34,856 nucleotides of DNA from Candidatus Pacearchaeota archaeon (GTDB lineage: Archaea; Nanobdellota; Nanobdellia; Pacearchaeales; UBA284). A model generated the notes under the pieces. It had not been told where the DNA came from. It did no database searches and saw only the letters and a program-made list of their open reading frames with translations. How positions within the stretch are numbered: position 1 is the stretch's first letter; every line of letters starts with the position of its first letter. Below are positions 9,998-27,424 of this stretch, piece after piece. A program made the translations under genes and the position numbers. Where the stretch lies: contig JAPLYB010000035.1 of NCBI GenBank assembly GCA_026395795.1, forward strand, positions 1 to 34,856. Direction: 5' to 3'.

Positions 9998-10052
9998 TGC
10001 TAGAAAAAGTCTTGCTTTTTCTGCATGTCGAAAATCCCCTGATTTTCGTCAT
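9998..10052. repeat. Multi-hairpin palindromic element A
   Basis: It starts TGCTAG. Hairpin 1 is AGAAAAAG…CTTTTTCT, the linker is GCATGT, hairpin 2 is CGAAAATC-CCCT-GATTTTCG, and it ends CGTCAT. Read on the minus strand it is the leader of eS31, and the loop shows AGGGG, a possible weak Shine-Dalgarno-like run. It belongs to the same family as elements B-F. Confidence 0.65.
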
Positions 10053-10077
10053 AATATAAATTTTAATTTTTTTAGTG

Positions 10078-10091
10078 ACGACAACGTTGTC
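10078..10091. promoter_or_regulatory. Palindrome with ACGACAACGTT word, upstream of eS31
   Basis: GACAACGTTGTC (10080-10091) is a perfect 12-bp palindrome. The 11-mer ACGACAACGTT (10078-10088) recurs at 10468-10478 upstream of eS24, about 50 bp before that ATG. Paired occurrence before two ribosomal protein genes suggests a regulator site or RNA feature. Function is unknown. Confidence 0.35.
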
Positions 10092-10139
10092 TTGAATGAT
10101 TAATGTTTATTATAATTCCTTTAATTTAACTATATAGAT

Positions 10140-10418
10140 TTAAGCTGCAGCTCCCGGTGTTTTCTTTTCTTTCTTCTTTGGTTCAAACTTTTTTAATGAT
10201 TCAGCAGAATCGTAGACATAAGCAATAACATCTGATTTGTTTGACCCGAATTTTTGATAAATATGTTTTACAACAATCAACTCTTTCTCTTTCTTAGTCA
10301 AACTTGCAAGCTCCTCTTGGATTTTTGCATTTGAAGGCGTAATTTTTTCTTCAGCAATCGCATGAATCTCTTCTCTTTCTACGAGAGGTTTTTTTTCTTG
10401 TTTTTCTATTTTTATCAT
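10140..10418 (-). CDS. rps24e: Small ribosomal protein eS24
   Basis: The 92-aa protein follows the eS24 pattern: an N-terminal IEKQEKKPLVEREEIHAIAE strand-helix, TPSNAKIQEELA, then VVKHIYQKFGSNKSDVIAYVYDSAE and a KKFEPKKKEK basic end. It belongs to the conserved archaeal group with Spt4, Rpo7 and eS31. The gap of about 110 bp upstream and an ACGACAACGTT word suggest its own promoter or leader. Confidence 0.95.
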   Translation of the reverse strand: MIKIEKQEKKPLVEREEIHAIAEEKITPSNAKIQEELASLTKKEKELIVVKHIYQKFGSNKSDVIAYVYDSAESLKKFEPKKKEKKTPGAAA

Positions 10419-10467
10419 GTTTCGATTTTATAATAATTTTATTAGCTTTATTTATTTTTATTTGATT

Positions 10468-10478
10468 ACGACAACGTT
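10468..10478. promoter_or_regulatory. ACGACAACGTT word upstream of eS24
   Basis: Identical to the 11-mer at 10078-10088 upstream of eS31. It lies about 50 bp before the eS24 ATG in very AT-rich sequence, where such a GC-containing word stands out. Confidence 0.3.
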
Positions 10479-10528
10479 ATTTTTTGATTAGGACTTATTT
10501 TATTTATATTATTGACTTTTTTAGTGAT

Positions 10529-10720
10529 CTATCTTATCTTTAAAGCGTATGTTCCTTTTTGTTTAACTGCTAGTTTTTGTGCGATTTCACTTTTCTCTGG
10601 ATTAATTATTATTGCTTTTCCTTTCCAACTATCTATCAACTGTGTTCCTTTACAAAGTGGACAAGTTGTTCCGGACTCAACTATTATCTTACAGCTTTTA
10701 CATGCTTTTAATTTTGCCAT
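10529..10720 (-). CDS. spt4: Transcription elongation factor Spt4 (RpoE'')
   Basis: Partner of Spt5 (NusG-like) on elongating RNA polymerase. Zinc ribbon ACKSCKIIVESGTTCPLCKG (C-x2-C…C-x2-C), then the Spt4 core SWKGKAIIINPEKSEIAQKL and YALKIR. The 63 aa are a normal archaeal length. It begins 1 bp after the Rpo7 stop, so the two are co-transcribed as in most archaea. Confidence 0.95.
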   Translation of the reverse strand: MAKLKACKSCKIIVESGTTCPLCKGTQLIDSWKGKAIIINPEKSEIAQKLAVKQKGTYALKIR

Positions 10721-10721
10721 T

Positions 10722-11345
10722 TTATTTTTTCTTCTCCTTCTTTTCTTTCTTCCCTTTTCCCTTTTCTTCTTTTACAGAGGTTCTTGCAAGTTTATCAGCC
10801 ATTGTCTTTGCTCTCTTCTTCTCATCTTGTATCCATTCTAACTTTCCTAGACCTGGCTGTCTCATTGTCAATCCGATTTTTGGGGGCATTGTCCTAAAAC
10901 TGATTGCAACTACCCTCGCTAAACATTGATCTCCTTTCTTTAATACTCTCTTTGTATTCTTTCCAGTTAGCGTTCCTGTCTTTGAGAAATTAACATAATC
11001 TTCCATGGTTTGGCTTATATGTATCATTGCATCAAAAGGCCCGATCTTAATGAATGCTCCAAAGTTCGTTATTTCCATTACTTCTCCGTACACTGGTTCA
11101 TGCAACATTGGTTTGAAAACAAGCAATTTGAATTCAGACTCATAATAAGCAGCAGCATCACTTGGGATTAAGATTCCATCACCAACATTTAATATGTCTA
11201 AAACAGCTATTACAGACCCTAAGTCTTCGTCGATGTAATCCTCATAAACTTTTTCAAGTTGTTTTTTGATCGATTCTTTTACAGGAAGATCAAACAATTT
11301 GGGTTCTACTCGAACATGATCTTTTACAGTCATTATATAAAACAT
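10722..11345 (-). CDS. rpo7: RNA polymerase subunit Rpo7 (RpoE')
   Basis: Stalk subunit of RNA polymerase, binding nascent RNA with Rpo4. N-terminal RNP-like domain (VKDHVRVEPKLFDLPVKES), then an S1 domain from about residue 80 (PVYGEVMEITNFGAFIKIGP, MIHISQTMEDYV). A very basic, Lys/Glu-rich C-terminal tail (about residues 185-207) extends past the usual end. The first ATG fits the family start (MFYIMTVKDHVRV). The leader, about 115 bp, carries a long hairpin at about 11398-11430. Confidence 0.93.
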   Translation of the reverse strand: MFYIMTVKDHVRVEPKLFDLPVKESIKKQLEKVYEDYIDEDLGSVIAVLDILNVGDGILIPSDAAAYYESEFKLLVFKPMLHEPVYGEVMEITNFGAFIKIGPFDAMIHISQTMEDYVNFSKTGTLTGKNTKRVLKKGDQCLARVVAISFRTMPPKIGLTMRQPGLGKLEWIQDEKKRAKTMADKLARTSVKEEKGKGKKEKKEKKK

Positions 11346-11462
11346 TTTTATCTACTTCAGACTAGTCTTTATACGTAAGTGATAAAATTTACATTTAAAA
11401 ATCTTTGTTTTTCCAGATGAAAGATTTTTAAGTGTTCTATTACAAAGAGCATTGTAGCTCGC

Positions 11463-11846
11463 CTATCTTTCTTCAAGATATTTCTTCTGTCTTATCATAA
11501 GCACATTAAGTCCTTCTTTCTTAAGTCTTTTTATAAGTTCTTTGTCCATTGTCCCGACAATTGCGGTTTTCTTTTCTTTCATCCCTAACTCAAGAACAGC
11601 GTCATCTGCCTTGCTGTCAATATCATTAACAAACTTCACTTTCTCTCCAATCTTTTCTAAGAATTGTAATGCAATACCGGCCCTTTCTCTATCAACAACT
11701 TTTTCACCTTTACTTTTGCTTAAAACAACAAGTTCAGCAAGAACTTGTTTAAGCAATAATATTTCTTTATAGTTCTCAATCTTGTCAAGTAATTTGAACC
11801 TAACAAGATAAATCAGAAAATTCGTATCTGGGATGATTCTGTTCAT
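11463..11846 (-). CDS. PIN-domain nuclease, Fcf1/Utp24-like
   Basis: PIN RNase fold: RIIPDTNFLIYLVRFKLLD with the first catalytic Asp, QVLAELVVLSKS with the second acidic residue, then DSKADDAVLELG and AIVGTMDKELIKRLKKEG with the last Asps. Archaeal versions of this protein often sit beside rpo7 and are likened to eukaryotic Fcf1, an rRNA-processing nuclease. The open frame extends upstream to 11894, but a TATA (TTTATATA) 26 nt before 11846 and the family start (MNRIIPDTN) set the start there. It differs from VapC in that the RelE/DUF2683 pair next to it is a separate unit. Confidence 0.85.
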   Translation of the reverse strand: MNRIIPDTNFLIYLVRFKLLDKIENYKEILLLKQVLAELVVLSKSKGEKVVDRERAGIALQFLEKIGEKVKFVNDIDSKADDAVLELGMKEKKTAIVGTMDKELIKRLKKEGLNVLMIRQKKYLEER

Positions 11847-11867
11847 GAATGGGATAACAAAAAAGAA

Positions 11868-11875
11868 TATATAAA
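11868..11875 (-). promoter_or_regulatory. TATA box of PIN-domain gene
   Basis: TTTATATA on the minus strand, centred 26 nt before the ATG at 11846, so the transcript is likely leaderless. It is back to back with the TTTAAATA promoter (11906-11913, plus strand) of the DUF2683/RelE unit. Confidence 0.6.
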
Positions 11876-11905
11876 TGTTAATGAAAAGCCACACTATTCG
11901 AAAGG

Positions 11906-11913
11906 TTTAAATA
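11906..11913 (+). promoter_or_regulatory. TATA box of the DUF2683/RelE module
   Basis: TTTAAATA preceded by CGAAAGG (BRE-like), about 50 nt before the ATG of the antitoxin gene. It leaves a short leader. Confidence 0.5.
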
Positions 11914-11961
11914 TAATGTTTTGTTATAGATTATAATTAAAGATAATAAAATATAATCAAA

Positions 11962-12195
11962 ATGGTACAAAGTCTAATAAACATGAACGAGAGAGAAGAT
12001 CGAGTTTTGAATATGGTAAAAGCAAAATTTGGGCTTAAGAATAAGAGTGAGGCTGTTGCTTTGATTACAAGGACATATGAAGAAAGTTTTCTTGAACCAG
12101 AGCTTAGACCAGAGTTTATAGAGAAGATGAAAAAAAGAGCAAAAGAGCCTGCTGTAAAGGTTGATGATTTTAAAAAACATTTCAACTTAAAATAA
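11962..12195 (+). CDS. DUF2683-type antitoxin
   Basis: The 77-aa protein begins MVQSLINMNEREDRVLNMVKA, then KFGLKNKSEAVALITRTYEE and LEPELRPEFIEKMKK. This is the DUF2683 pattern known in archaea, a ribbon-helix-helix-like N-terminal part and a C-terminal tail that wraps a RelE toxin. The toxin gene follows after 9 bp. It would repress its own promoter and neutralise the toxin (established for such pairs, inferred here). Confidence 0.85.
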   Translation: MVQSLINMNEREDRVLNMVKAKFGLKNKSEAVALITRTYEESFLEPELRPEFIEKMKKRAKEPAVKVDDFKKHFNLK

Positions 12196-12204
12196 TCTTT
12201 TAAA

Positions 12205-12465
12205 ATGTATGGTTTGATGATAAGAAAAGAGGTAGAAAAAATTTTCTTCAAAATTGCAAAAAAGAATCCTAAAAATCTTGAATTTATCCGCAAAAAAATT
12301 GAAGAGATAAGAAATAGTCCTCAACACTACAAAAATCTTAAAAGTCCAATGCAGCATTTAAAAAGAGTTCAGATTGGTCCTTATGTTTTAACCTTTTCTG
12401 TTGATGAAAATACAAAAATCGTAACAATCGAAGATTTTGATCATCATGATAAGATCTATCAATAA
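12205..12465 (+). CDS. relE: RelE/ParE-superfamily toxin
   Basis: The 86-aa protein has the RelE fold signature: MIRKEVEKIFFKIAKKNPKN, LKSPMQHLKRVQIGPYVLTF, SVDENTKIVTIEDFDHHDKIYQ. The basic strand (KRVQIGPY) and C-terminal Tyr are typical of mRNA-cleaving RelE proteins, which act on translating ribosomes. It is the second gene of a two-gene module with the antitoxin upstream. Active toxicity is not proved by sequence. Confidence 0.85.
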   Translation: MYGLMIRKEVEKIFFKIAKKNPKNLEFIRKKIEEIRNSPQHYKNLKSPMQHLKRVQIGPYVLTFSVDENTKIVTIEDFDHHDKIYQ

Positions 12466-12476
12466 TCATTTTATTT

Positions 12477-12932
12477 TTATTTTTTCAGAAATGCTTTAAT
12501 CATATCCGCCTTCTCTATCATTCCCAACTTTCTGTACGCTTCTTCTTCTGCCCTTAACGATAAACAAGGAATAATCATTCCATTAACCTTTATTTTTAAA
12601 GGAGCTTTGTTCACAATAATATAAGTCCCGTGATTATACTCGCCGCAAATAAGAAATTTAACACCATAAACATGCATAAAAAACTCTTTTGCTTCTCCAT
12701 TATCCCGCTCTTCAGTCTCAATATGTTTAAACTCAGAGAATAAAAAAAGGAATTTTTCAAGATCCTCGTGCCCGAAAACAATCCCGATATGAGATGGATT
12801 CATATCAACTCCTTGCAATGTGCAGTTACTAGATCCAGTTAGAAACCATTTTATATCAGAATTATTAAGTCTTGAAGCAACAACTTTCAGTGCTTCAATA
12901 AATTTTTCATTTAACATTTTTAAAAATTTCAC
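12477..12932 (-). CDS. Nucleotidyltransferase-like protein with degraded active site
   Basis: The fold is that of small archaeal nucleotidyltransferases: IKWFLTGSSNCTLQGVDMNP, a GS motif followed by the place where two metal-binding aspartates are expected (family PxDIDI). Here the sequence reads PSHIGI, so both aspartates are replaced (His48 and Gly50), and the enzyme is probably inactive or has another role. The later part (about 70-151) keeps the VKFLICGEYNHG and EEEAYRKLGM features of the family. A GTG start at 12932 overlaps the scpB stop (GTGA), suggesting coupling. An ATG at 12917 is the alternative start. Confidence 0.7.
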   Translation of the reverse strand: MKFLKMLNEKFIEALKVVASRLNNSDIKWFLTGSSNCTLQGVDMNPSHIGIVFGHEDLEKFLFLFSEFKHIETEERDNGEAKEFFMHVYGVKFLICGEYNHGTYIIVNKAPLKIKVNGMIIPCLSLRAEEEAYRKLGMIEKADMIKAFLKK

Positions 12933-13525
12933 TCTTTTTTCACTTCAACATTTCCCTTTTTCTCTTTATCAAGGCTAAAATAATTATAAAAATCTTCTGA
13001 TAAAGAAAGTTCAACTGTTCTGCTGCATTTCTTTCCTTTCACAAGGCCGACTTCCATCATGTGTTTGATGTGATTATATGCTTTATTCCCTCTGATTCTC
13101 ACAATAGAAGATTGTTTTATTGGCTGTTTGTATGCAATTATTGCCAGGGTTTCTTGTTCAGCTTTGCTAAACTCTGCTTGTCCCGTAACAATCTTATTGA
13201 TTAAGTTATGATACTGTTGTTTGACATCCATCTTATAGAAAGACTGCCCCTCAACATCTCTTTTATGTACAACAATTGCACTCTCTCCTGTTCCATATTT
13301 CTTAATGAGCTTTTCCATTAACACCTTAACAGTTATTGGATTTATGCTAGTAAATTTAACAATTTCATCAGTATCTAAGAACCTAGCTGATAAAAATAAA
13401 GTTGCTTCTATTCTCTGCAGATTCTCTTTTTCAGTAACAGAGTCAGAGTCTTGAAAAAGCGAGCCAGTATTTCCACCACTCGACTTAACCTCTTTCTCAA
13501 TTCTCTCAATAATCTCTTTTTCCAT
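12929..13525 (-). CDS. scpB: Segregation and condensation protein ScpB
   Basis: Winged-helix partner of ScpA in the SMC complex. The first winged helix (about 40-110) has RIEATLFLSARFLDTDEIVKF. The second (about 125-185) has the ScpB core EFSKAEQETLAIIAYKQPI, QSSIVRIRGNKAYNHIKHM and a VELSLSEDFYNYF end. The open frame reaches 13537, but a TTTAAG box about 24 nt before 13525 favours the ATG there (MEKEIIERIEKEV). The family start is variable. Downstream, the NTase-like gene overlaps by 4 bp, and scpA is on the same strand at 4.5-5.5 kb. Confidence 0.9.
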   Translation of the reverse strand: MEKEIIERIEKEVKSSGGNTGSLFQDSDSVTEKENLQRIEATLFLSARFLDTDEIVKFTSINPITVKVLMEKLIKKYGTGESAIVVHKRDVEGQSFYKMDVKQQYHNLINKIVTGQAEFSKAEQETLAIIAYKQPIKQSSIVRIRGNKAYNHIKHMMEVGLVKGKKCSRTVELSLSEDFYNYFSLDKEKKGNVEVKKE

Positions 13526-13559
13526 AATCCTAAGCATACAATAAAGCTTAAATAATTTT

Positions 13560-13865
13560 CTAGAACTCTTTTTTCTGCCGGCTTTTCATTTCCTCAATCT
13601 TTTTTCTTACTTCTACTGGCAGATCTATATCATAAATCTTTGAAAGAACGAGTAAGTCTAACATAGATTGAGTTATTTCTTCTATGAGGTTGTTGTGATC
13701 ATACTTCCTCATTTTAAGGTTTTTGTTTACCAGTTGTCTTGCTATCTCTCCAATTTCTTCAGAAAGATGCATGAAAACAAGCTCCGGGGTCAGCTCTGAC
13801 CCAAGCTCAGACACTCTCTTCTTTTGAAGTTTGTAAATTTCATCGCTTAATTCTAGGATATCCAT
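13560..13865 (-). CDS. MazG-like NTP pyrophosphohydrolase
   Basis: Single-domain MazG-like protein of about 101 aa. The metal motif EEIGEIARQL (Glu36, Glu37, Glu40) is intact. The second half reads EEITQSMLDLLVLSKIYDIDL with Asp70 kept but Ser at the usual first Glu of ExxD (residue 67). These enzymes hydrolyse (d)NTPs to monophosphates for pool clean-up. It is upstream of scpB on the same strand, about 35 bp away, possibly with its own promoter. A second MazG-like protein lies at 16182-16529. Confidence 0.8.
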   Translation of the reverse strand: MDILELSDEIYKLQKKRVSELGSELTPELVFMHLSEEIGEIARQLVNKNLKMRKYDHNNLIEEITQSMLDLLVLSKIYDIDLPVEVRKKIEEMKSRQKKEF

Positions 13866-13940
13866 TTTATGGTGGATAATGGACAGCGGTTCAATTTAAA
13901 TAATTTTCTGATTGGAAATACAATTCTGCAATTCAAAAAT

Positions 13941-13948
13941 TTTAAATA
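13941..13948 (+). promoter_or_regulatory. TATA box of tRNA-Gly
   Basis: TTTAAATA is located about 25-30 nt upstream of the first base of the tRNA (13972), the usual archaeal spacing. Confidence 0.65.
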
Positions 13949-13971
13949 GCCCTTGCGTCTAATTTTCACAT

Positions 13972-14043
13972 GCGCTGTTAGTATAGTGGTTAGTATGCGA
14001 CGTTGCCAACGTTGCGACCCGGGTTCGAATCCCGGACGGCGCA
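13972..14043 (+). tRNA. trnG: tRNA-Gly (GCC anticodon)
   Basis: 72-nt cloverleaf. Acceptor GCGCTGT pairs with ACGGCGC, discriminator A, no encoded CCA. The D arm is GTAT-AGTGGTTA-GTAT. The anticodon arm is CGACG-TTGCCAA-CGTTG, giving GCC (Gly). The T arm is CCGGG-TTCGAAT-CCCGG. No intron. Its own TATA box is at 13941. Confidence 0.97.
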
Positions 14044-14123
14044 TTCAACTTCTTGACATTTTGTACTTAATCTGAACAATTGATTATAGCACTATTATAT
14101 ATAGTTCAAATTATTAAAGGGTA

Positions 14124-14252
14124 ATGATAAAAACATGTAAAACTTGTGAAAAGCCTTTCAAGGATAAACAAGATATGCACCTTGAAAAAAAAGTTGGCGG
14201 AGATTTTTATCTTTGCAGCAGCTGTTTTTTAAAAAAGATTTATTCAGGGTAA
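14124..14252 (+). CDS. Small zinc-finger protein (42 aa), unknown
   Basis: A 42-aa frame with two CxxC knuckles: Cys5/Cys8 (KTCKTCEKP) and Cys31/Cys34 (YLCSSCF), 22 residues apart, a zinc-ribbon layout. An AAAGGG site lies just before the ATG, and a TATA (ATTATATATA) lies about 30 bp upstream. No family name. Its position directly after tRNA-Gly may be coincidence. Confidence 0.6.
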   Translation: MIKTCKTCEKPFKDKQDMHLEKKVGGDFYLCSSCFLKKIYSG

Positions 14253-14342
14253 TTGAAATAAACCTTATAGGGAAACTACGACAATAAAGAAAGCTCAGCC
14301 GATGACAGAAATATTTATATCTATCTCTAAACCCTCTTTTTA

Positions 14343-14921
14343 ATGGAAATAGAAATTCGAGCATTCATAAACAATATTGAAGATTTTAAGAAAAAAATTC
14401 AAGAAGTTGGTGGCGAATTTGATTCTGAGAAACATATTATTGATTATTGGTTCTGTCCAAAAGACAACACCTGTTTTGAACAAGCCCAGCAGCACAAACC
14501 TGGTTCTTATGCATTGAGAATAAGAAAGAAGTTGAAAAATGGTCAGGAGATAGTCGAGTTCAATTGCAAGGTTTTGGAGAAAGAAGGAGACCATAATGCG
14601 TTTCATGAACACGAAACAACAGTCGGGAGTTTTGAACAGACAAGACAAATCCTCGAGAAGATGGGCTTTAAAGTTTTTTGTATAATAGACAAGAACAGAA
14701 CAACTTACAAATTAGATCACTGTAAGATAAATATAGAAGACATAAAGGGTTTTAAACCAGCAGTTGAGTTAGAGATCATTTCTGATTCTGAAACAGAGAA
14801 GCACAGAAGTTATTTGAAAGATCTCCTAAACAAACTAGGAATAGAAGAAAAAGATAAGATAGAGAAGAGCATAACTTTTGTTTACATGGAACAGTTCTCA
14901 TTCAAAAATTTGAATTGCTGA
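14343..14921 (+). CDS. CYTH-domain protein (CyaB/ThTPase-like)
   Basis: CYTH proteins form a metal-dependent tunnel that binds triphosphates (class IV adenylate cyclase or thiamine-triphosphatase activity). The N-terminal ExExK-type signature is present as MEIEIRAF, with Arg in place of the Lys. The strand motifs YALRIRKKL, EFNCKVLEKEGD, FCIIDKNRTTYKLDHCKINIEDI and the acidic VELEIISDS complete the barrel. The 192 aa are normal. The reaction cannot be assigned. A TTTATATCT box 20-30 nt upstream suggests its own promoter. Confidence 0.88.
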   Translation: MEIEIRAFINNIEDFKKKIQEVGGEFDSEKHIIDYWFCPKDNTCFEQAQQHKPGSYALRIRKKLKNGQEIVEFNCKVLEKEGDHNAFHEHETTVGSFEQTRQILEKMGFKVFCIIDKNRTTYKLDHCKINIEDIKGFKPAVELEIISDSETEKHRSYLKDLLNKLGIEEKDKIEKSITFVYMEQFSFKNLNC

Positions 14922-15032
14922 CTCTTTCTCTTCAAAAAGTATTTAAATGCCTTCTGTTTTATATAAAAGTTAGATGGAGTCAGTCTGATTGTAAAGGGAT
15001 AATCTAAAAAATTAAAAAGAGGATACTAAAAA

Positions 15033-15533
15033 ATGGCAGAGTTGGGACCAGTATTTGCGGGAAAAGTATTTCATACAGGCATCTTTGATTTTAAAGAGCT
15101 ATACAAATTTTTATATGAATGGTTGAAAGATTATCAATATTTTATAATAGAGAAGAAATATTCTGAGAAAATTAAATCAGATGGGAAAGAGATTGAGATG
15201 GAATGGATGAATCTCAGGAAGATAAGCGACTATTTCAGATTCAGAATAAGGATGATTACCAGAGTAACAAAGATGGTGAGTGTCGAAGTACAAGAAGAAG
15301 GTGTTAAGACCACAAAAGATAAAGGAGAAATAGAGATCAAATTCGAAACTTATCTAGAAAAGGATTATGAAAACAGATGGGAAGAGAATGCAGTCTTCAA
15401 ATTCTTAAGGGGGATGTATGATAAATATATCATAAAGAGCAGAATCGAGTTTTATGAAGATAAATTAAAAGATGAAACAGATGAGTATATCAATCAGATT
15501 AAAGCGTTTTTAGTTCTTGCAGGAAAATATTAA
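15033..15533 (+). CDS. Conserved hypothetical protein
   Basis: Not recognised. The 166-aa protein is alternating beta and helix, soluble and highly charged (Lys/Glu-rich). It begins MAELGPVFAGKVFHTGIFDF and contains WLKDYQYFIIEKKYSEKIKS and RFRIRMITRVTKMVSVEVQE, ending QIKAFLVLAGKY. No metal or nucleotide motif is visible. It has a TTTAAATG promoter (about 14942) and an AAAGAGGA ribosome site before the ATG, so translation is leadered. Confidence 0.7.
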   Translation: MAELGPVFAGKVFHTGIFDFKELYKFLYEWLKDYQYFIIEKKYSEKIKSDGKEIEMEWMNLRKISDYFRFRIRMITRVTKMVSVEVQEEGVKTTKDKGEIEIKFETYLEKDYENRWEENAVFKFLRGMYDKYIIKSRIEFYEDKLKDETDEYINQIKAFLVLAGKY

Positions 15534-15673
15534 CTTTTTGTACTTTTGATAAGAATTCTTAATAAATCTTTTAAAATAAAGTGCTAGGTTTATTTTAGAT
15601 ACCTATTACTTTATCACAATCATCTTTTTATATAAGTGTTGTATAGTAACAAATAGCATCAAAACCGTCTAAA

Positions 15674-16177: not shown

Positions 16178-16181
16178 TTGT

Positions 16182-16573: not shown

Positions 16574-16948
16574 TTATTTCAATTCAGAAATTCTTTTACT
16601 AAGTTTTTCTAAAACACCGTGTGTATCCCCATAGACATCTTGACCTGGTCTGCTTGATTTCAAACTGATGAGGTCTGTGTCTAAATCAAATGTATTTGTT
16701 TTAGAACTGCTGATATTCAAAGAAGTTAGTGGATCTACCTGTGGCATGATGCTCACAAGATGAATAAGTTCTTCATGAGCAGAATTAACCAGCGTTCTGG
16801 CTTTGAGGATTAATTCATGTTTCATTTTTATTTCATTTTGCGTCCTAAAAGCAGAATCTCTAAGATTAAGTACAGCATTTTTAGCTAATTTGCCATTCTC
16901 TTGAATGTCTTTCAAATCATTTGTTTCTAATCTTATAAAAACCGACAT
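16574..16948 (-). CDS. Unknown coiled-coil-like small protein behind hairpin leader
   Basis: The start is the ATG at 16948; an in-frame TTG at 16954 is less likely. A strong AGGAGGT Shine-Dalgarno lies 9 nt upstream, inside the last hairpin of element B. The protein (124 aa) is helical and polar (FIRLETNDLKDIQENGKLAK, FRTQNEIKMKHELILKA), with a Ser/Thr/Asp-rich middle and a final helix. It has no known motif. The gene at 17113-17679 is upstream on the same strand and also coiled-coil, so the two may act together. Confidence 0.65.
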   Translation of the reverse strand: MSVFIRLETNDLKDIQENGKLAKNAVLNLRDSAFRTQNEIKMKHELILKARTLVNSAHEELIHLVSIMPQVDPLTSLNISSSKTNTFDLDTDLISLKSSRPGQDVYGDTHGVLEKLSKRISELK

Positions 16949-17052
16949 GCTCAAAAACCTCCTGTTTTTGGCACACTTGAAAATCTTCTGATTTTCTGTG
17001 TGCAGGAAATGTAATTTCCTAGCATACCAAAAATATTCTTATTTTTTAGCAT
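16948..17052. repeat. Multi-hairpin palindromic element B
   Basis: It begins ATGCTC and ends TTTAGCAT. Between lie AAAAACCTCCTGTTTTT, a GCACAC/GTGTGC stem (16971-16976 with 16998-17003) enclosing GAAAATC-TTCT-GATTTTC, GGAAAT…ATTTCC and AAAAATATTCTTATTTTT. On the minus strand it is the 5' leader of the downstream gene. The loop of its last hairpin carries the AGGAGGT that probably serves as ribosome site, so folding could control translation. Confidence 0.65.
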
Positions 17053-18576: not shown

Positions 18577-18744
18577 TCTCCTTTTTCTTATAGGAATTGA
18601 TTAAATTTATTAATCCAAATTCTTTATATACCCTATAATGGCATCAATATAAGAACTCCTTTAATGATAAAAGTAAGGTCACATCGATAACATTATAATA
18701 TAATTAAAACCAATATACAGATAAATATAAACCTTAAAAAATAA

Positions 18745-18858
18745 ACACGCTTGAAAATGCGAGAAAATGAACACATTTTCTGCATGCTCAGAAATGCAAA
18801 GCATTTCTGGACACAGAAAATTCGCAAATTTTCAAGCGTGTCAAAAATTAAAAATTTT
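18745..18858. repeat. Multi-hairpin palindromic element C (cruciform-like)
   Basis: An outer stem of 18 pairs, ACACGCTTGAAAAT-GCGA (18745-18762) with 18822-18841 and a 2-base bulge, encloses GAAAATG-AACA-CATTTTC (18763-18780) and AGAAATGC-AAA-GCATTTCT (18790-18808). The linkers are TGCATGCTC and GGACAC. It predicts a multi-way junction in DNA or RNA. It ends just before the rhomboid ATG (18864), so it is also the leader of that gene. Confidence 0.75.
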
Positions 18859-18863
18859 TAAAC

Positions 18864-19628
18864 ATGGCAGAAGGATTTTCCTACAAATTTTCTTATGATT
18901 CTAGCCCTTATATTAGACATGAGAAGAAGCCAAAACTTGGAATATCCATAACTCTTCTTCTAGTCATTATTACTGTTGCAATTTTTCTTGTCCAGAATAT
19001 TGTTGATTACACAACATTAGACAAACAAACAGGAGTTGGATGGTTTACTAGAACTTTTGGATTGATTCCAAACGACGTTCTTCATGGAGAACATGTTTGG
19101 AGTATTTTTACAAACATTTTCTTGCACGCCCCTCTTTGGGACGGAGGCCTGTTTCATATTGCAGCAAACATGCTTTCCCTAGTATTTCTAGGATCTTTTT
19201 TAGAAAGATTGATAAGCAAGAAAAAACTTTTTTGGATTTACATTATATCGGGGATTGTAGCTTCGCTCTTTTTCATCATTCTCGCATCTTTATTCGGATC
19301 AACAGCACTAGGAGCAAGATTATTCGGAAGCCCCAATGTTCTAGCTGTTGGTGCTTCTGGTGCGATTTTTGGTTTAGCAGCAGTTCTCATGATTTTAACA
19401 CCAAAAGTTCCAGTTTATATCTTTTTTATTCCAATTGCTATGCCTCTTTGGGTTGGAATGTTAATTATGCTGATTGGTTTATGGGCTGTATCAGCAGTTG
19501 CAGGACTGCCGATAGGAAACTCAGCTCATTTAGGGGGTTTCATTGCAGGCCTCTTTTATGGGATCTATCTAAGAACAAAATATCCTAAGAAAGTTGCTTT
19601 AATAAGGCAGGCATTTCATAAGAATTAA
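18864..19628 (+). CDS. Rhomboid intramembrane serine protease
   Basis: Six-helix membrane protease that cuts transmembrane segments. The catalytic Ser165 lies in VGASGAIFG and the His222 in NSAHLGGF. A HIAANMLSLVFLG motif (His98, Asn102) precedes them, as in active rhomboids. The 254 aa have an N-terminal cytosolic part (1-27) and helices from about residue 28 to 235. A hairpin element (C) forms the leader, and its last hairpin ends a few bases before the ATG. The HIT-like gene follows 31 bp later. Confidence 0.92.
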   Translation: MAEGFSYKFSYDSSPYIRHEKKPKLGISITLLLVIITVAIFLVQNIVDYTTLDKQTGVGWFTRTFGLIPNDVLHGEHVWSIFTNIFLHAPLWDGGLFHIAANMLSLVFLGSFLERLISKKKLFWIYIISGIVASLFFIILASLFGSTALGARLFGSPNVLAVGASGAIFGLAAVLMILTPKVPVYIFFIPIAMPLWVGMLIMLIGLWAVSAVAGLPIGNSAHLGGFIAGLFYGIYLRTKYPKKVALIRQAFHKN

Positions 19629-21667: not shown

Positions 21668-21780
21668 ATTATTTTTTATAATAATTTCTGAAACAACAGT
21701 ATAAAATAACGAAAACTATAATAATCTTTCTTATAGTCTACAACAATAAACCTTTTTAATGCTCTTTTCGTTTGGAAAAA

Positions 21781-22242
21781 ATGTTACCTGATCTTGGAAT
21801 GAGTATAGAAGGCATAGCAAAAATTATTGCTGCAGAGGATATGGACTATGGAGAAGGCAGAACAGAAGGGGGGGTGACGATATATCTTCCCTTTAGAAGT
21901 CAGGAATATACCGACGAATATCAAGTTATGATGGGACTTGTTCATCTAGTAGCAAGATACATGCAAGAAACCCGAAGACAAACCTGGGATTATGGAGAGA
22001 GGGATGCTGAAAAAGGGATTGTTTGTGGAGAGAGTCCAACAACAGGCGGGCTAGCCATCTATGATACTAGTAAGGGTCAAATGAAAGAAGATGGTCTTCA
22101 TTTCTTTTTAAACAAAACAGGTGGTAAGAGGGGCGTTTCGATTGGATGGAAAGGGGGGATGGTTCTTGATGACCAGCTTATTTCACTCCTTTCCAAAGAG
22201 TTATGTGATTGGTTAAAGCAACAATTAAAAAAAGATTCTTAA
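21781..22242 (+). CDS. Unknown YGEGR-family protein, paralogue 1
   Basis: Not recognised. 153 aa from the ATG at 21781, chosen over an in-frame TTG because a TTTTTAAT box lies 24 nt upstream, fitting a leaderless start. Shared with the protein at 24525-25082: YGEGR, GVTIYLP, WDYGERDAEKG, VCGESPTTGG, KT and VSIGWKGGMVLDDQL. The alternating small, acidic and aromatic motifs look like a compact alpha/beta binding domain. It has no signal peptide or membrane helix. Two copies within 3 kb imply recent duplication or two subunits. Confidence 0.7.
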   Translation: MLPDLGMSIEGIAKIIAAEDMDYGEGRTEGGVTIYLPFRSQEYTDEYQVMMGLVHLVARYMQETRRQTWDYGERDAEKGIVCGESPTTGGLAIYDTSKGQMKEDGLHFFLNKTGGKRGVSIGWKGGMVLDDQLISLLSKELCDWLKQQLKKDS

Positions 22243-22289
22243 TCTACGAAATGGATAGACACAAAGCATTTCTCTATTGATTCATTGTT

Positions 22290-22478
22290 CTATTTATTTA
22301 AATCACTTATCCCAAGAATCAAGAAAAGCAAGCCGAATAAAACAAGAATGACTACAACTGCCCCGCCGATAAAAACAAGAGTTGCTTTTCCAAGTCCAGG
22401 TATCCAATTGAATATTGCTGCTAAAATAGGTACAGCCAATAAGATAAGTCCCAGCAAAATTTCAATGAATTTATTCAT
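22290..22478 (-). CDS. Small two-helix membrane protein, hypothetical
   Basis: 62 aa, almost entirely two transmembrane helices (about 4-26 and 33-56) with a short WIPGLGKA turn. The TATA TTTAAA (22502-22507, minus strand) is 26 nt before the ATG, a leaderless promoter. That supports a real gene. Role unknown. Confidence 0.7.
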   Translation of the reverse strand: MNKFIEILLGLILLAVPILAAIFNWIPGLGKATLVFIGGAVVVILVLFGLLFLILGISDLNK

Positions 22479-22520
22479 AAAACATTCAATGAACTAAGAT
22501 TTTTAAAGCTTTTCAATAAG

Positions 22521-22528
22521 TATTTAAG
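22521..22528 (+). promoter_or_regulatory. TATA box of MFS transporter gene
   Basis: TATTTAAG lies about 33 nt before the ATG at 22558. It is back to back with the TTTAAA box of the small membrane protein on the minus strand (22502-22507). Confidence 0.5.
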
Positions 22529-22557
22529 ATACAATGGCTATTTTTTGAAAAGGAAAA

Positions 22558-23757
22558 ATGTCTCAAAACAAAACAGGGTCAAAAGTAAAGAAGACATTCT
22601 ACAGCATGGGTTTTGTTAACGGAATCAGAAGAGCTGTGATGGTTTCATTGGCGATTCTGTATTTTATTTCAGTTGGTTACAATGTTATTGAGGTTACATC
22701 TCTGTTTGCAATCTCAACAATTATAATGATTCTTTTTGAGATTCCAACTGGTGCATTTGCAGATCACTTTTCAAGAAAAAAATCAATTGTCATGTCTTTT
22801 ATCTTGTTAGGAATAGCTTTTTTCGGATTATTCATATTCAGGAATTTTTGGTTGCTCGGAATTTCATGGATTTTGGGGGATATTGCATGGACATTTCAAT
22901 CAGGAACAGCGAGTGCTTGGGTAGTTGATAAATTAAAATATGGAAAAAATAAGAAAAATTTAGCCACTTTGTTTGCAAGAGCTTTTTTCTTTGTTCAAAT
23001 CGGGCTAATTATTGGCGGACTTGTGGGTTTTATTCTGGTTTCAGTTCAATTCAGATTTGTTTGGTTAGCAGTCTCTTTAACGAATTTGATCATGGCCGTA
23101 ATACTATCAAAGTATATAGAAGAGGATAAAGTAAAATCAGCTAAGTTTGAGTTTGGTATAATCTCTGGATCATTCATAAAAGCAAAACAAGCAATTGTAT
23201 TCCTGTTTAATAAACAAAATAAACAAGCAAGAGGAGTAACCCTAGCCCTGTTCCTAGGCACCATTGCTACCGCTTCTTTCTTTGTTGAATATCCGTTGAT
23301 TTTGTCAAATCTTGGATTAAGTCCCAGTCTAGTTTCTGGCTTATTTGCTTTGGTGGGCATTCTGGTTTTATTCGCACCATTTTTAGGGGAAAAAACAGCA
23401 CATAAATTTGGTTTCAAAAATTTCCTAGGAATCTCTTCAATCATCCTTGGAATTGCGATAATTTTAATGGGGTTGTCTCAATCTCTTTTATTTGCAATGA
23501 TATTCTTAGTTGTAATCAGAATAAGTTTAGATGCAACAGATGCAATCCATGAATCGGCTTTCCAGCATTCAATTCCTTCAAATTGTAGAGCAACTCTCGG
23601 ATCTGCAACGAGTGTGGTCTGGGGAGTTGCAAATTCACTTGCCGTTTGGGCAATTGGATTGGTGATAACTTTTGTTGGTTTGGGTTACGCTGCTATAGTC
23701 AGTGGGATTTTTGCAGTATTAACAGCAATAACTTACTTTATGACCTTAAAAAAATGA
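22558..23757 (+). CDS. Major facilitator superfamily transporter
   Basis: A 399-aa integral membrane protein with about 12 helices. The MFS motif between helices 2 and 3 reads GAFADHFSRKKSIVMSF. The two six-helix halves are joined by a charged stretch near residues 188-225 (KYIEEDKVKSAKFEF, KAKQAIVFLFNKQNKQAR). Substrate cannot be read; the sequence resembles small-molecule or drug efflux members. It appears monocistronic. Confidence 0.88.
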   Translation: MSQNKTGSKVKKTFYSMGFVNGIRRAVMVSLAILYFISVGYNVIEVTSLFAISTIIMILFEIPTGAFADHFSRKKSIVMSFILLGIAFFGLFIFRNFWLLGISWILGDIAWTFQSGTASAWVVDKLKYGKNKKNLATLFARAFFFVQIGLIIGGLVGFILVSVQFRFVWLAVSLTNLIMAVILSKYIEEDKVKSAKFEFGIISGSFIKAKQAIVFLFNKQNKQARGVTLALFLGTIATASFFVEYPLILSNLGLSPSLVSGLFALVGILVLFAPFLGEKTAHKFGFKNFLGISSIILGIAIILMGLSQSLLFAMIFLVVIRISLDATDAIHESAFQHSIPSNCRATLGSATSVVWGVANSLAVWAIGLVITFVGLGYAAIVSGIFAVLTAITYFMTLKK

Positions 23758-23812
23758 TTATTGGTCAGTTTTTGTTCAAAAGCTTTAAAAACAATGTTTT
23801 CATAACAAAATC

Positions 23813-24343
23813 ATGAAATCATACTATAATCATTTACGTGAAGCATTCAAACAAAAGGCTCCAGCGGAATGGCAAGAGCTGTTGACAAGATGGCGAAACT
23901 CAAATGCAATAGTCAAGGTTCAAAGACCATTCCGACTGGATAGGGCTCATGCTCTTGGTTACAAAGCAAAGAATGGAATTATTGTTGCTAGAATTCGCGT
24001 GATACGAGGAGGAAGAAAGAGACCAACAAGATCTGCAGGAAGAAGAAGCAAGAGACAAACCATAAGAAAGACATTGATGATGAATTATCAAGCAGTTGCA
24101 GAACAGAGAGTTCAAAGAAAATTCGTAAACCTTGAAGTTCTTAATTCATATTATCTAGCAAAAGACGGAAGACATTTCTGGTTTGAAGTCATTCTAATTG
24201 ATCCTTGCGCACCAGAAATCATTTCAGATAAAAGACTTAATTGGGTTTGCACAAACAAAAATAGAAAGAGAGCATTAAGAGGATTAACAGCATCATTCAG
24301 AAGATCAAGAGGATTACTAAAGAAAGAAAAGAAAGGAAACTAA
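23813..24343 (+). CDS. rpl15e: Large ribosomal protein eL15
   Basis: Strong match to archaeal eL15: WQELLTRWRNSNAIVKVQRP, RLDRAHALGYKAKNGIIVAR, RVIRGGRKRPTRSAGRRSKR and LRGLTASFRRSRGLLKKEKK. The 176 aa are slightly short of the usual 190-200. A TTTAAA box lies 28 nt upstream, so the transcript is near leaderless. In many archaea it precedes the RNase P/exosome genes, which are not here. Confidence 0.95.
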   Translation: MKSYYNHLREAFKQKAPAEWQELLTRWRNSNAIVKVQRPFRLDRAHALGYKAKNGIIVARIRVIRGGRKRPTRSAGRRSKRQTIRKTLMMNYQAVAEQRVQRKFVNLEVLNSYYLAKDGRHFWFEVILIDPCAPEIISDKRLNWVCTNKNRKRALRGLTASFRRSRGLLKKEKKGN

Positions 24344-24344
24344 A

Positions 24345-24464
24345 ATGCATGAACTTCATTTTGGGGCTGTATCCAATAGTGAAAGAACAAAAGTTTTGAA
24401 TGGTTTAAATTCTAGATTAAGTATTAAAAAAATTCGGAATAACTCCGATTCAACCTCCTGTTAG
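24345..24464 (+). CDS. Small ORF after eL15 (uncertain)
   Basis: A 39-codon frame starts 1 bp after the eL15 stop (MHELHFGAVSNSERTKVLNG…). No motif. The end of the frame overlaps a hairpin CGGA-ATAAC-TCCG (24435-24447) followed by a C-rich stretch. It may be a coupled small gene, a decayed neighbour, or only the eL15 3' region. Confidence 0.3.
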   Translation: MHELHFGAVSNSERTKVLNGLNSRLSIKKIRNNSDSTSC

Positions 24465-24524
24465 ACCGCGATAATTCATTACAATAAAGCTTTTAACTTA
24501 AAAATTCCCCAGAAATCATAGAAG

Positions 24525-25082
24525 ATGTTATATCAATACAAAAGAGATCTTTCAAAAGTACTCGATGGAGATAGAATTTTTTATGGAGAAGGCAGAGGCG
24601 AGACAGGGGTTTGTTTGCATCTTCCTTTAGTGAATCATGTTGCAGGCGGGGCTCAAGGAGAGGATCACGCATTGATGGTTACTCTTGCAAATAATCTTAT
24701 TGAATACTTAATGTACAAAAGACAAAGAAAAGGTCCAGAAGAATGGGATTATGATGCAGATAAAGCAGGCGAGACATATGCTGTTTGCGGAGATAATCCA
24801 ACTACTTCAGGAATAGTTGTTTTTGACAGAAACTATGAGGGCGGATCAAAACTTCAGGTTATTTTAGATAAAACATTCGGTGCAAATGAAATTTCAATAA
24901 AATGGAAAAGCAACATGGTTGGTGATGAATTTCTCTTGAACGATTATCTAGAGTATCTAAAACAAGCTCTTGCAACTGGAGAACTTTCTAAGTCAGAGCT
25001 TTCTGAAACAGCTGCACCCGCTCAATCAGGACATTTTCAATCAATATCTTCATCTTCTTTGCAAAAAAAGTTGGGAAATTGA
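24525..25082 (+). CDS. Unknown YGEGR-family protein, paralogue 2
   Basis: 185 aa, not recognised, clearly related to the protein at 21781-22242. Shared blocks in order: YGEGRGETGVCLHLP, YLMYKRQ…WDYDADKAGE, VCGDNPTTSG, LDKT and ISIKWKSNMVGDEFLL. It adds a Ser/Ala/Gln-rich C-terminal tail (about 155-185), absent from paralogue 1. The conserved charged and aromatic residues, with no membrane segment, suggest a cytoplasmic binding or enzyme domain. Confidence 0.7.
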   Translation: MLYQYKRDLSKVLDGDRIFYGEGRGETGVCLHLPLVNHVAGGAQGEDHALMVTLANNLIEYLMYKRQRKGPEEWDYDADKAGETYAVCGDNPTTSGIVVFDRNYEGGSKLQVILDKTFGANEISIKWKSNMVGDEFLLNDYLEYLKQALATGELSKSELSETAAPAQSGHFQSISSSSLQKKLGN

Positions 25083-25142
25083 AGAGCAACTGATGAAGTT
25101 CATTGCAGTAAACTTTATATACTTCTGGCCATATTAAGAGTG

Positions 25143-25322
25143 ATGGTACAATTACAATGTCAAAAGTGTAATTACAAATTTGAGACTGCAAGAAAACCGA
25201 GTGAAATTCGAGCCTGTCCTTATTGTGGAACAGTTGGAAGTGTAAGAGAAATTCCTAATGCTTCAGATCTATTAAGAAATGCGGACGTAGATGAAGCCAG
25301 ATCATTCAGAAAAACAGCATAG
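25143..25322 (+). CDS. Small zinc-ribbon protein
   Basis: 59 aa from the ATG at 25143; TTTATATA (about 25113-25120) lies 26 nt upstream and supports this leaderless start over the in-frame GTG. Zinc ribbon: LQCQKCNYKFETARKPSEIR, then RACPYCGTVGSV (CxxC…CPxCG). Similar small ribbons occur in archaeal transcription or regulatory proteins. A charged tail (DLLRNADVDEARSFRK) follows. Confidence 0.75.
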   Translation: MVQLQCQKCNYKFETARKPSEIRACPYCGTVGSVREIPNASDLLRNADVDEARSFRKTA

Positions 25323-25399
25323 TTTCTTTTTGTATGAACTTAATCTTTCAAAATCTTTCTAATAGGTAAATATTCTCACGAGATGTTCATGGATTCGAC

Positions 25400-25840
25400 T
25401 TACTGCTTCTTATCCTTTACTAGATTTTTTAGTTCACTTAACTCTATTGGTGCGTAATCAGTTTTTTCAACACTTACATTTATTCCATTAAAACTTTCTT
25501 TATCATGAATATGCCCGTGAATATTAATAAATCCAACTGAAATTTCTTCTTTTGATAGTGGGCGATGGCTAAATATGAATTTATCAATTCTTAAGCTACC
25601 ATTCATGATTAGAAAGTCTGCTCTTCTGGTTGTTTTACGCTAGAAAAACGGGAATTCGCTCGGAAATCAAGGAAGATTTCCGGCGTGCAGAAAATTTTTT
25701 GAATTTTCTAGCATTTCTGCGTACCAAAAATCTTCTGATTTCCTAGAAAATTATAAATTTTCTGGACACTAAAAATTCTCTTAATTTTTAAGTGTTTTAG
25801 CATGATTAAAATGATTGTCTGAAGTTATAAAAATTTTCAT
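25400..25840 (-). pseudogene. Calcineurin-like phosphoesterase, split by palindromic element D
   Basis: The gene begins at 25840 with MKIFITSDNHFNHAKTLK, the SDxHFxH start of YfcE-like metallophosphoesterases, then stops at 25781. After 25639 a second piece reads …ADFLIMNGSLRIDKFIFSHRPL, then INIHGHIHD and SVEKTDY, the C-terminal metal-binding part. The middle third (GD and GNHD motifs, about 75 residues) is absent. In its place lies element D (25639-25803), full of stops. Both halves are in the same frame relative to each other. The product would be inactive. The longest open remnant is the 68-aa frame at 25400-25606. Confidence 0.8.
25639..25803. repeat. Multi-hairpin palindromic element D (inside phosphoesterase gene)
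   Basis: It begins GCTAGAAAA (25639-25647), paired exactly with TTTTCTAGC (25704-25712), enclosing GGAAATC-AAGGAA-GATTTCC (25662-25681). Then come AAATC-TTCT-GATTT, AAAATTATAAATTTT and ACACTAAAAATT…AATTTTTAAGTGT, ending TTTTAGCATG. The GCTA/TAGC ends match other members. Its position between two coding halves of one gene suggests it arrived by insertion. Confidence 0.75.
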
Positions 25841-25861
25841 TTTTTATAAGATAATTTATAT

Positions 25862-27127
25862 TTATTTTTCTAAAATCCATTTCCAAACAGGTTTAACTTT
25901 GATTATTTTGTCTTTTATTTTAATTTCATCTTCTTGATCATCTGTTAAAATTAATCCCTCTTTTAGTTTAAATTTTTCTAAAGCTTTAACTAAGCCATTT
26001 ATCTCTCTGTCTCTATTCTCCTTATTTAAATCATAACAAACTTGAATTGCTTCTGAAATTTTGGTCTTTTCTTTTACTAAAAAATCACATTCTTTTTTTT
26101 CACAGAAATAATAGATATCATTATTTCTTCTTTTTAGTTCAATAGCAACTAAATTCTCTAAAAGTTTTCCCCTATCTTCTGAAAACTTGAAGCCAATTGT
26201 GGTAATAAACCCGTTGTCTATACAATAAACTTTTCGAGGGTTTTGTATTTGTTTCTTGACAGCGTAATCAAATTTATTCAAGAAAAAAACTAAAAAAGAA
26301 TTTTCAAATGAATTTAAAATATTCTTAATTGTTGATAGATTTTTTATTCCTGTAAGTTCTGAGATATTCCTGCTACTCGTTAAACTAGCTGGATTAGAAA
26401 GCAGAAATAATCCAAGTTCTTTTATTTCTCTTTCTTGTTTGCTGAATTTTTTAATTATATCTCTATACAAAATCTGGTTATAAAGCTCAGAGATAATGAG
26501 TTTATTTCCTGTAACAACTCTTTTTGGGAAACCACCAATCTCTAAAAATTCTTTGAATTCTCTCCTTATTATTGATTGCGTTTTTAGGTCTAATTTCCAA
26601 TCTTTAATATTTACTTTTTTGAAACTTAAAAATTCAATGAAACTAAAGGGGGTGAGCCATAAACTTACAGATCTTCCAGTAAGTGTGCTTGAAATCTCTT
26701 TGCTTGACAACTTAGAATTTGAACCAGTTATGAAGAGAGGATATATATTTTTTATTCTATCTATCCATTTTTCCCATTTGTCAATTTCTTGAATCTCATC
26801 TAAAAACAAGAAGCAACTTTTTTTGTAATTATTTTCTTCAAGAAAATCAATTATCTTCTGAAAATCATCTATTGTAAAATTTGTTAGACTATCGTCATTG
26901 AAATTTATATAAAAAAAGTTTTTTTCATCTAATTTAAGCTCTTCTTTTATTAATCTTAAAAGGATAGATTTCCCACACCTTCTAACACCAGTTATGATTA
27001 TCGGCATTTTTAGGGCAAGTGTTTCAATTGCTTCTTTTGTGAGTGTTCTTTTTACCAATTCTATTTTTTCTTCTTCTAACTGCTTTTGCTGTCTAAAAAA
27101 AATTGTGTAAAGTTCTTCTCTTTTCAT
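25862..27127 (-). CDS. AAA ATPase of the AAA_14/DUF4143 type
   Basis: 421 aa. Walker A IITGVRRCGKSILLRLIK (Gly47-Ser54), Walker B SCFLFLDEIQEIDKW (about 104-118), sensor FITGSNSKLSSKE, and the TGRSVSLWLTPFSFIEFLSF block lead to a C-terminal DUF4143 domain (VYCIDNGFITTIGFKFSEDR, ENLVAIELKRR, CDFLVKEKTKISEAIQVCYD, a nuclease-like fold). Common, often mobile family of unknown role in archaea. A leaderless TATA (TTTAAA, 27151) and two operator-like repeats lie upstream. Element E lies beyond them. Confidence 0.9.
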   Translation of the reverse strand: MKREELYTIFFRQQKQLEEEKIELVKRTLTKEAIETLALKMPIIITGVRRCGKSILLRLIKEELKLDEKNFFYINFNDDSLTNFTIDDFQKIIDFLEENNYKKSCFLFLDEIQEIDKWEKWIDRIKNIYPLFITGSNSKLSSKEISSTLTGRSVSLWLTPFSFIEFLSFKKVNIKDWKLDLKTQSIIRREFKEFLEIGGFPKRVVTGNKLIISELYNQILYRDIIKKFSKQEREIKELGLFLLSNPASLTSSRNISELTGIKNLSTIKNILNSFENSFLVFFLNKFDYAVKKQIQNPRKVYCIDNGFITTIGFKFSEDRGKLLENLVAIELKRRNNDIYYFCEKKECDFLVKEKTKISEAIQVCYDLNKENRDREINGLVKALEKFKLKEGLILTDDQEDEIKIKDKIIKVKPVWKWILEK

Positions 27128-27150
27128 AGTTCTTTTAATAAATTGAAGTT

Positions 27151-27156
27151 TTTAAA
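27151..27156 (-). promoter_or_regulatory. TATA box of the AAA/DUF4143 gene
   Basis: TTTAAA on the minus strand, centred 26 nt upstream of the ATG at 27127, predicting a leaderless transcript. The operator copies begin 11 bp further upstream. Confidence 0.6.
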
Positions 27157-27166
27157 TCTTTCTAAA

Positions 27167-27187
27167 GTGATACACTTTTTGTATCAC
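27167..27187. promoter_or_regulatory. Operator-like inverted repeat, copy 1
   Basis: GTGATAC-N7-GTATCAC, a perfect 7-bp inverted repeat with spacer ACTTTTT, next to the BRE/TATA of the ATPase gene. An identical copy lies at 27200-27220, 33 bp further (three helical turns). This is the expected shape of a dimeric repressor or activator site, such as the ATPase system's own regulator (inference). Confidence 0.6.
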
Positions 27188-27199
27188 TTTTTGTATTAA

Positions 27200-27220
27200 G
27201 TGATACACTTTTTGTATCAC
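27200..27220. promoter_or_regulatory. Operator-like inverted repeat, copy 2
   Basis: Identical to the copy at 27167-27187, including the spacer. A half-site-like GTATTAA lies between the two. Confidence 0.6.
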
Positions 27221-27227
27221 TTCTTTC

Positions 27228-27424
27228 TGCTAGAAAAACACAGTTTTTCTGCATGCCGAAAATGCTTTTCATTTTCGAGCATATTGTCAATAGACAATAG
27301 TTTCTATTGTGAATAGAAAGATGCTTTCACCGATGCTTGAAAACGGCGATTTTCGGCACCCCTCGTTCCGCTCAAAAACCTGGTTTTTTGGCGTGCCAAA
27401 AATCTTCTGATTTTTTAGCATGAT
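27228..27424. repeat. Multi-hairpin palindromic element E (largest, seven hairpins)
   Basis: It begins TGCTAG, ends TTTAGCATGA. In order: AGAAAAAC-ACA-GTTTTTCT (27232-27250); linker GCATGC; CGAAAATG-CTTTT-CATTTTCG (27257-27277); ATTGTC-AATA-GACAAT (27283-27298); TTTCTATT-GTG-AATAGAAA (27301-27319); a GAAAAC…GATTTTC pair; AAAAAC-CTG-GTTTTT; linker GGCGTGCC; AAAAATC-TTCT-GATTTTT. It lies between the ATPase operators and the PfpI gene. Several arms differ in sequence but remain complementary. Confidence 0.75.

Follow-up and report, generated by a model that had tools for sequence, protein, structure and literature searches.

What are the clusters of short A/T-rich hairpins that recur along contig JAPLYB010000035.1 of a Candidatus Pacearchaeota archaeon, and how did they come to be dispersed? 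The window, as the whole analysed stretch is called here, is the entire 34,856-base contig, and its parent is a draft assembly of 957 kb in 44 contigs (87.5% complete), from which stretches totalling 442 kb (46% of the assembly) were surveyed as the same genome. Archaeal genes for Rpb7, TFE-alpha and L15e were found in this genome, and the relatives found for L15e were Pacearchaeota, Woesearchaeota and unclassified archaeal metagenome-assembled genomes; these genes and names support a DPANN archaeon as the host. An earlier note on the window had described a dispersed family of multi-hairpin palindromic elements at six places and had named a mobile element, an RNA structure and a chromosome site as candidate functions. 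As judged by sequence comparison, the hairpin clusters are probably copies of a non-autonomous mobile DNA element of ~50–57 bp.

A fixed hairpin-cluster detector (at least two A-first hairpins, arms of at least 6, loops of 3–6 and linkers of 3–11) found 7 clusters in the window, as compared with 0–1 in 30 Markov-1 shuffles, and 50 in the 442 kb, as compared with 1.2 in the control. Since a single-hairpin pattern search was noisy in the relatives (the reversed control also matched in genome G017), a covariance model, R1, was used, and it was built from eight copies that all lay outside the window. All six places named in the earlier note were found to carry the structure and to match R1, and the dispersed family that it had claimed was recovered as ~60 distinct R1 loci in the 442 kb, together with matches in related genomes. 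The covariance model, the searches of the same genome and of relatives, and the test for compensatory change, which that note had proposed, were all strongly positive. The copies are homologous to one another, the best pairs scoring 36–44 of ~55 and the shuffles at most 14.

In each unit two A/T hairpins with bulges are arranged as mirror images, and a 3-bp foot that co-varies closes each of them; the unit is 50–57 bp long (54 bp when the loops are 4). Its grammar can be written as XYZ-T-[~8-bp stem, A-run on the 5' side]-loop of 3–6-[stem]-z'y'x' / UVW-[stem]-loop-[stem]-A-w'v'u', where the slash separates the two hairpins. The first hairpin starts with a 3-nt foot and a bulged base (usually T) on the 5' side, followed by a stem of ~8 bp, a loop of 3–6 and the complementary arm and foot; in the second, which mirrors it, the bulged base is usually A and lies on the 3' side. 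The two inner feet (GCA/TGC, GCG/TGC, GGA/CGC and others) together form the linker, typically of 6 nt. When the count was limited to hairpins whose lower stem was 3 bp or longer, a net 5' bulge was observed in 24 of 33 "first" hairpins and a net 3' bulge in 29 of 36 "last" hairpins. Because of these mirror bulges the unit is symmetric under reverse complement, so that both DNA strands look alike, as expected for something acting as DNA. Plain protein-binding palindromes were rejected as an identity, given that the variable loop length (3–6) and the bulges argue against them.

Compensatory change in the arms is real, as the earlier note had read from the varying arms that keep pairing. Among 128 R1 matches, which include both strands of each locus and are not independent, all 22 pairs were changed on both sides; double-change cells numbered 580, versus 153 after shuffling and 18–73 with the partners slid, and 94.3% of cells paired, versus 74.4% after shuffling. 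The feet gave a cleaner test, because the 128-match alignment had been fitted to the structure and these lower 3-bp stems were not used in finding copies. Foot sequences vary (TGC, CGC, TCC, CAC and others) with co-varying partners, and they pair in 55–80% of copies, versus 28–44% with swapped partners. At the single locus where one orthologous copy was compared between two species of a related genus (73% DNA identity), two compensatory stem changes and none uncompensated were observed: CAGAAAT/ATTTCTG to CAAAAAT/ATTTTTG, and AAAAAGC/GCTTTTT to AAAAACGC/GCGTTTTT.

The evidence for mobility comes from places where the unit is precisely present or absent, from end to end of the 3-bp feet. At L020 10788, a 54-bp in-frame insert interrupts an Imm5_like gene; when it was removed, the Pfam score (in bits) increased from 104 to 119, and 102 residues were aligned to the same number of profile positions. 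At L033 18584, an NSUN-type methyltransferase carries a 17-residue insert that is missing in nine homologues. A dispersed repeat of ~180 bp in genome G227 was found in 6 empty and 2 filled copies which differ by exactly 54 bp, and near-identical repeats of genome G174 occur with and without 50 bp at CGACCTAA^AGGTCG (the caret marks the insertion point), a hairpin loop. A tRNA-Arg gene of genome G008 has the element in its intron, and the gene of the same-genus genome G004 has no intron. Target duplication was looked for at the insertion joins (Imm5_like, NSUN, the G227 and G174 sites, the tRNA-Arg intron and nested copies), and none was seen. From this comparison we infer that the element moves. 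The host repeat of G227 (L217–L225) is 90–99% identical among its copies and has a 17-bp hairpin of its own, and some copies contain further palindromic inserts, one of them G+C-rich. A ladder of 54, 108 and 162 bp in this repeat was considered as repeated 54-bp steps and rejected: the first step alone is the element, and the rest are other palindromes or a deletion.

The sites that are occupied point to a preference for hairpins. When the flanks of 109 elements were joined, a hairpin with arms of at least 9 was restored at 13, versus 2.3 expected (maximum 5.3 in 20 flank swaps). The first tests for nested insertion, which required A-first hosts, were not significant; this unrestricted joined-flank test was. 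Host sites were older copies of the element, tRNA-intron loops, T-arm copies behind tRNA genes and hairpins of other repeats. In five cases the element lies in the terminal loop of a tRNA intron. Behind some tRNA genes the tRNA's own last 20–26 nt are copied, and the element is found in the T-arm copy, for example at CTGGGTTCA^AATCCCAGCAGCCC; 7 of the 11 tRNAs with such 3'-end copies have an element inside the copy. At several tRNA genes (L020 10220, L052 7861, L056 19447, L142 5010, L144 4889, L145 102, L160 7359 and L164 about 14600), a reverse complement of the T-arm precedes the second copy of the last 20–26 nt, with the element inside. A tRNA-Ser at L054 10460–10711 (G012) has a predicted 170-nt intron in which the hairpin arms AGGAAATC..GATTTCCT enclose other sequence.

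A further position is the start codon. At nine loci the last base of the element serves as the A of a start codon (A^TG), which it restores, and no element was found to end 1–9 nt away; these gene starts came from a simple in-house caller, and a check against proper annotation is warranted. Loci of this kind are 16948 and 18864 in the window and others in L010, L011, L014, L017, L018 and L019. The left end of the composite at 16948 is the start codon of a minus-strand gene (16574–16948), and the last base of the composite ending at 18864 is the A of the ATG of a rhomboid gene (18864–19628). The L15e scan gave no close relative in synteny, though a copy was found at a start codon in L077.

The copies in the window are listed in the table below. 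The earlier note had described two to seven hairpins per element; the multi-hairpin copies were found to be two-hairpin units, often with inserted units, rather than a free array, and the larger arrays are mostly units nested inside units. When 25657–25713 and 25741–25794 were cut from the composite at 25638, the remainder was ACGCT[AGAAAAA-cgggaa-TTTTTCT]GCGTACC[AAAAATC-ttct-GATTTTT]TAGCAT, a standard unit. Units at L018 5463 and L038 5248 were also observed to share one insertion point in a host hairpin (AGA^TTTT), and a similar arrangement was found at L011 3836 and L012 18198. Over its whole length, the four-hairpin composite at 16948 can be aligned with L010 7115–7255 and L017 12770–12905 (both reversed), where the flanks are unrelated; composites are therefore dispersed too, not just single units. 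Regarding the parts that the earlier note had assigned to the family, the copy at 2366 was matched, though decayed, and the palindromes directly left of the 27228 unit proved to be a different thing. This array (27164–27222) has head-to-tail arms AAGTGATACA..TGTATCACTT and belongs to a different family.

Table. Double-hairpin units and composites in the window (the caret marks an insertion point; the slash, where it divides two feet, the junction of the two hairpins).
Feature	Position	Context	Match or basis
Decayed double-hairpin element	2364..2423	Between two divergent genes	Right hairpin AAAAATGC-gta-GCATTTTT intact; R1 2364-2423, E 2.6e-4
Single unit TGC-T[AGAAAAAG..CTTTTTCT]GCA/TGT[CGAAAATC..GATTTTCG]	9998..10051		R1 9997-10052 on both strands, E 4e-8 and 6e-8
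Four-hairpin composite (first-first-last-last)	16948..17051		R1 16947-17052
Inner unit of the 16948 composite	16974..17024	Between the two hairpins of the outer unit (GCA^TAC)	Sequence and bulge types
Composite of nested units	18746..18864	Long enclosing arms 18726-18765 / 18821-18860	R1 18757-18865
Composite, outer unit with two inner units, one per hairpin	25638..25802		Excision leaves a standard unit
57-bp unit	25657..25713	In left hairpin of the outer unit (GAATT^TTTCT)	No target duplication; R1 25656-25714
54-bp unit	25741..25794	In right hairpin of the outer unit (GATT^TTTTA)	No target duplication; R1 25740-25795
Single 54-bp unit TGC-T[AGAAAAAC..GTTTTTCT]GCA/TGC[CGAAAATG..CATTTTCG]A-GCA	27228..27281		R1 27227-27282, E 4e-10
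Single unit CGC-TC[AAAAAC..]GGCGTGCC[AAAAATC..GATTTTT]TA-GCA	27369..27420		R1 27368-27421, E 3e-10

The two ends of the contig (1–141 and 34716–34856) are perfect 141-nt reverse complements of each other. It is likely that the assembly graph ended here at a repeat, and that this is no biological terminal repeat, because 141 nt corresponds to the k=141 of a common assembler.

The element is patchy across the class. Within the order, 22 of 55 genomes had R1 matches at E<=0.1, with up to ~50 loci each, and nearly all genomes of one large family (f8) had none. Matches at E<=1e-3 were found in 30 of 141 genomes of a class sample and in 78 of 194 genomes, mostly more complete, of a phylum sample. 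All listed carriers belong to one class, the sampling depth of the other classes not being established.

Several explanations other than a mobile DNA unit were weighed. The strong compensatory change, the peak exactly at start codons and the orthologous copy kept with compensatory changes between two species would suit a functional structure that is vertically kept and not mobile, such as a regulatory RNA of 5' leaders, a terminator or a cruciform chromosome site. However, inserts inside protein genes and tRNA introns, nesting, and filled and empty paralogous sites disfavour this explanation, which is highly unlikely for the family, though individual copies could be co-opted. Transcription terminators were rejected as an identity, convergent gene pairs not being enriched (2 of 42 elements lie between convergent genes), and so was a known RNA family: with the Rfam covariance models the tRNA-Gly alone was matched in the window, and no element match rose above the gathering score. 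Of the three functions named in the earlier note, the mobile element is favoured by the filled and empty sites, the nesting and the in-frame inserts, and the other two were not selected. Replication could also generate and perfect palindromes as a by-product, by template switching at hairpins and with no mobile unit involved. The near-perfect arms are what it would produce, and the palindromic T-arm copies behind tRNA genes resemble its products. It leaves unexplained the homologous copies at unrelated loci, the constant unit length and the exact inserts, and exact dispersed copies with unrelated flanks were seen; as the origin of the family it is very improbable, and it may contribute to keeping the arms complementary.

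The means of movement raise two more alternatives. One is an archaeal REPIN or BIME moved by a REP-associated Y1 transposase (RAYT), whose inverted hairpin doublet, compensatory change and "clover" fold (PMC3116915) the element resembles. The window genome has three IS200-like Y1 transposase genes (L073, L074 and L075), but the ends of these genes carry other hairpins, distinct from the element family (in two of the genes, CAATGAGCT..AGCTCATTG and ACTTTTTGC-ttc-GCAAAAAGT). Moreover, 13 of 14 further carriers, among them a 100%-complete genome in one contig and both genomes with filled and empty sites, were found to lack Y1_Tnp, as were the order-level carriers G004, G012, G013, G014 and G017, and the element has neither fixed 16-mer ends nor a GTAG/CGTC tag. 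A Y1/RAYT mover was rejected on this distribution and on the other ends of the window genome's Y1 genes, and an identity with REPINs is scarcely credible. The other alternative is a route through RNA, in which the transcribed unit would insert into RNA loops (the tRNA T-loop, introns, the 5' ends of leaderless mRNAs or its own hairpins) and would then reach DNA by reverse transcription and recombination. All of the targets are plausible as RNA loops or 5' ends, and the lack of target duplication is the ground on which RNA intermediates were proposed for the double-hairpin elements of Allomyces (PMC2800124). The mirror 5' T and 3' A bulges, however, form a double-stranded DNA symmetry which RNA would not need, and no reverse transcriptase was found in the carriers G012, G017, G007 and G014, whose assemblies are incomplete. 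We consider this route unlikely. Reverse transcriptase, which is patchy, and tyrosine recombinases, which are nearly ubiquitous, were both rejected as movers, as neither tracks the element.

Some points weigh against a mobile DNA element that seeks hairpins. At the G174 and G227 sites taken alone, precise loss instead of gain is possible, and ~70% of the joined flanks of the 109 elements gave no hairpin with arms of at least 7. Hairpin targeting may be overestimated, because inserts are easiest to recognise in hairpins and the surviving sites are selected. Finally, none of the Y1_Tnp, tyrosine recombinase and reverse transcriptase families tracks the element.

For movement as DNA, the mirror symmetry, the lack of target duplication and the preference for hairpins and A^T positions, which can become single-stranded, suggest a single-stranded DNA unit joined into single-stranded DNA, as in HUH-type systems. 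A structure-specific enzyme would recognise the two mirror hairpins as single-stranded DNA, cut at the outer ends of the feet and join the unit into a single-stranded or cruciform target, such as a hairpin loop or a transcription bubble. Its need for hairpin shape, not sequence, would keep the arms complementary while the sequence drifts, perhaps helped by hairpin-templated correction. Hosts would tolerate the unit in DNA that is non-coding, spliced out, trimmed off or encoding a surface loop, and single copies would grow into tree-like clusters by insertion into their own copies. It is possible, if short of probable, that the element represents a class-wide DPANN family of mobile DNA that recognises and inserts into nucleic-acid shape and not sequence, hairpins entering hairpins, with a structure-specific mover outside the Y1, tyrosine-recombinase and reverse-transcriptase families, and that some of the tRNA-intron sequence, tRNA trailers and 5' leaders of these reduced genomes stem from it. 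The element is abundant (~60 loci in under half of the assembly) and widespread in the class, it connects mobile DNA with the introns and 3' trailers of tRNAs, and it offers a clear case of sequence drift under structural constraint.

In the literature searched, no such family was reported for archaea. The earlier note had compared the elements with REP/BIME and MITE-like DNA; as comparable DNA this stood, and membership of REP/BIME did not, given the absence of Y1 from carriers and of a fixed sequence tag. MITEs are likewise short, non-autonomous and dispersed, but they carry a known transposon's terminal inverted repeats and usually have target duplications, whereas the archaeal element has no duplication; no ends shared with the IS200-like genes, the transposons compared here (others were not surveyed), were found. 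REPINs share the inverted hairpin doublet as a unit, the lack of autonomy, the intergenic position and the compensatory change (PMC3116915). They differ in their invariant 16-bp ends and RAYT Y1 transposases, whereas the archaeal ends vary and the carriers lack Y1; the element is not a REPIN, because near-complete carriers have no member of the Y1 (IS200/REP) transposase family. The GC clusters of yeast mitochondria (GC42) are likewise palindromic and mobile; these units of 42 nt have constrained stems, and they merge and shuffle (PMC4478555). They differ in leaving an AG target repeat, where the archaeal element leaves no duplication. Inserts in frame inside protein genes are shared with the Rickettsia palindromic elements, which are longer single palindromes of bacteria; the archaeal element is a double hairpin and lies mostly in non-coding DNA.

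The closest analogue, as judged by structure, is the double-hairpin elements (DHE) of fungal mitochondria. In Allomyces, these are short, dispersed and structurally related but divergent in sequence, and they were judged mobile with no flanking duplication, which is lacking in both systems (PMC2800124). Both consist of two adjacent hairpins of tens of bp, dispersed, with the structure kept and the sequence varying; the repetitive hairpin-forming elements of sponge mitochondria are similar. DHE are also present within introns and genes and can be nested in each other, and their stems in fungal mitochondria are G+C-rich. The archaeal element differs: it lies on archaeal chromosomes, its stems are A/T-rich with A-runs, its T/A bulges are mirrored, its 3-bp feet co-vary and it prefers hairpin sites. 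The comparison is one of structure, between short and divergent sequences. Its natural filled and empty sites make it suitable for studying how short palindromes move with no visible transposase, a question that it shares with the fungal DHE.

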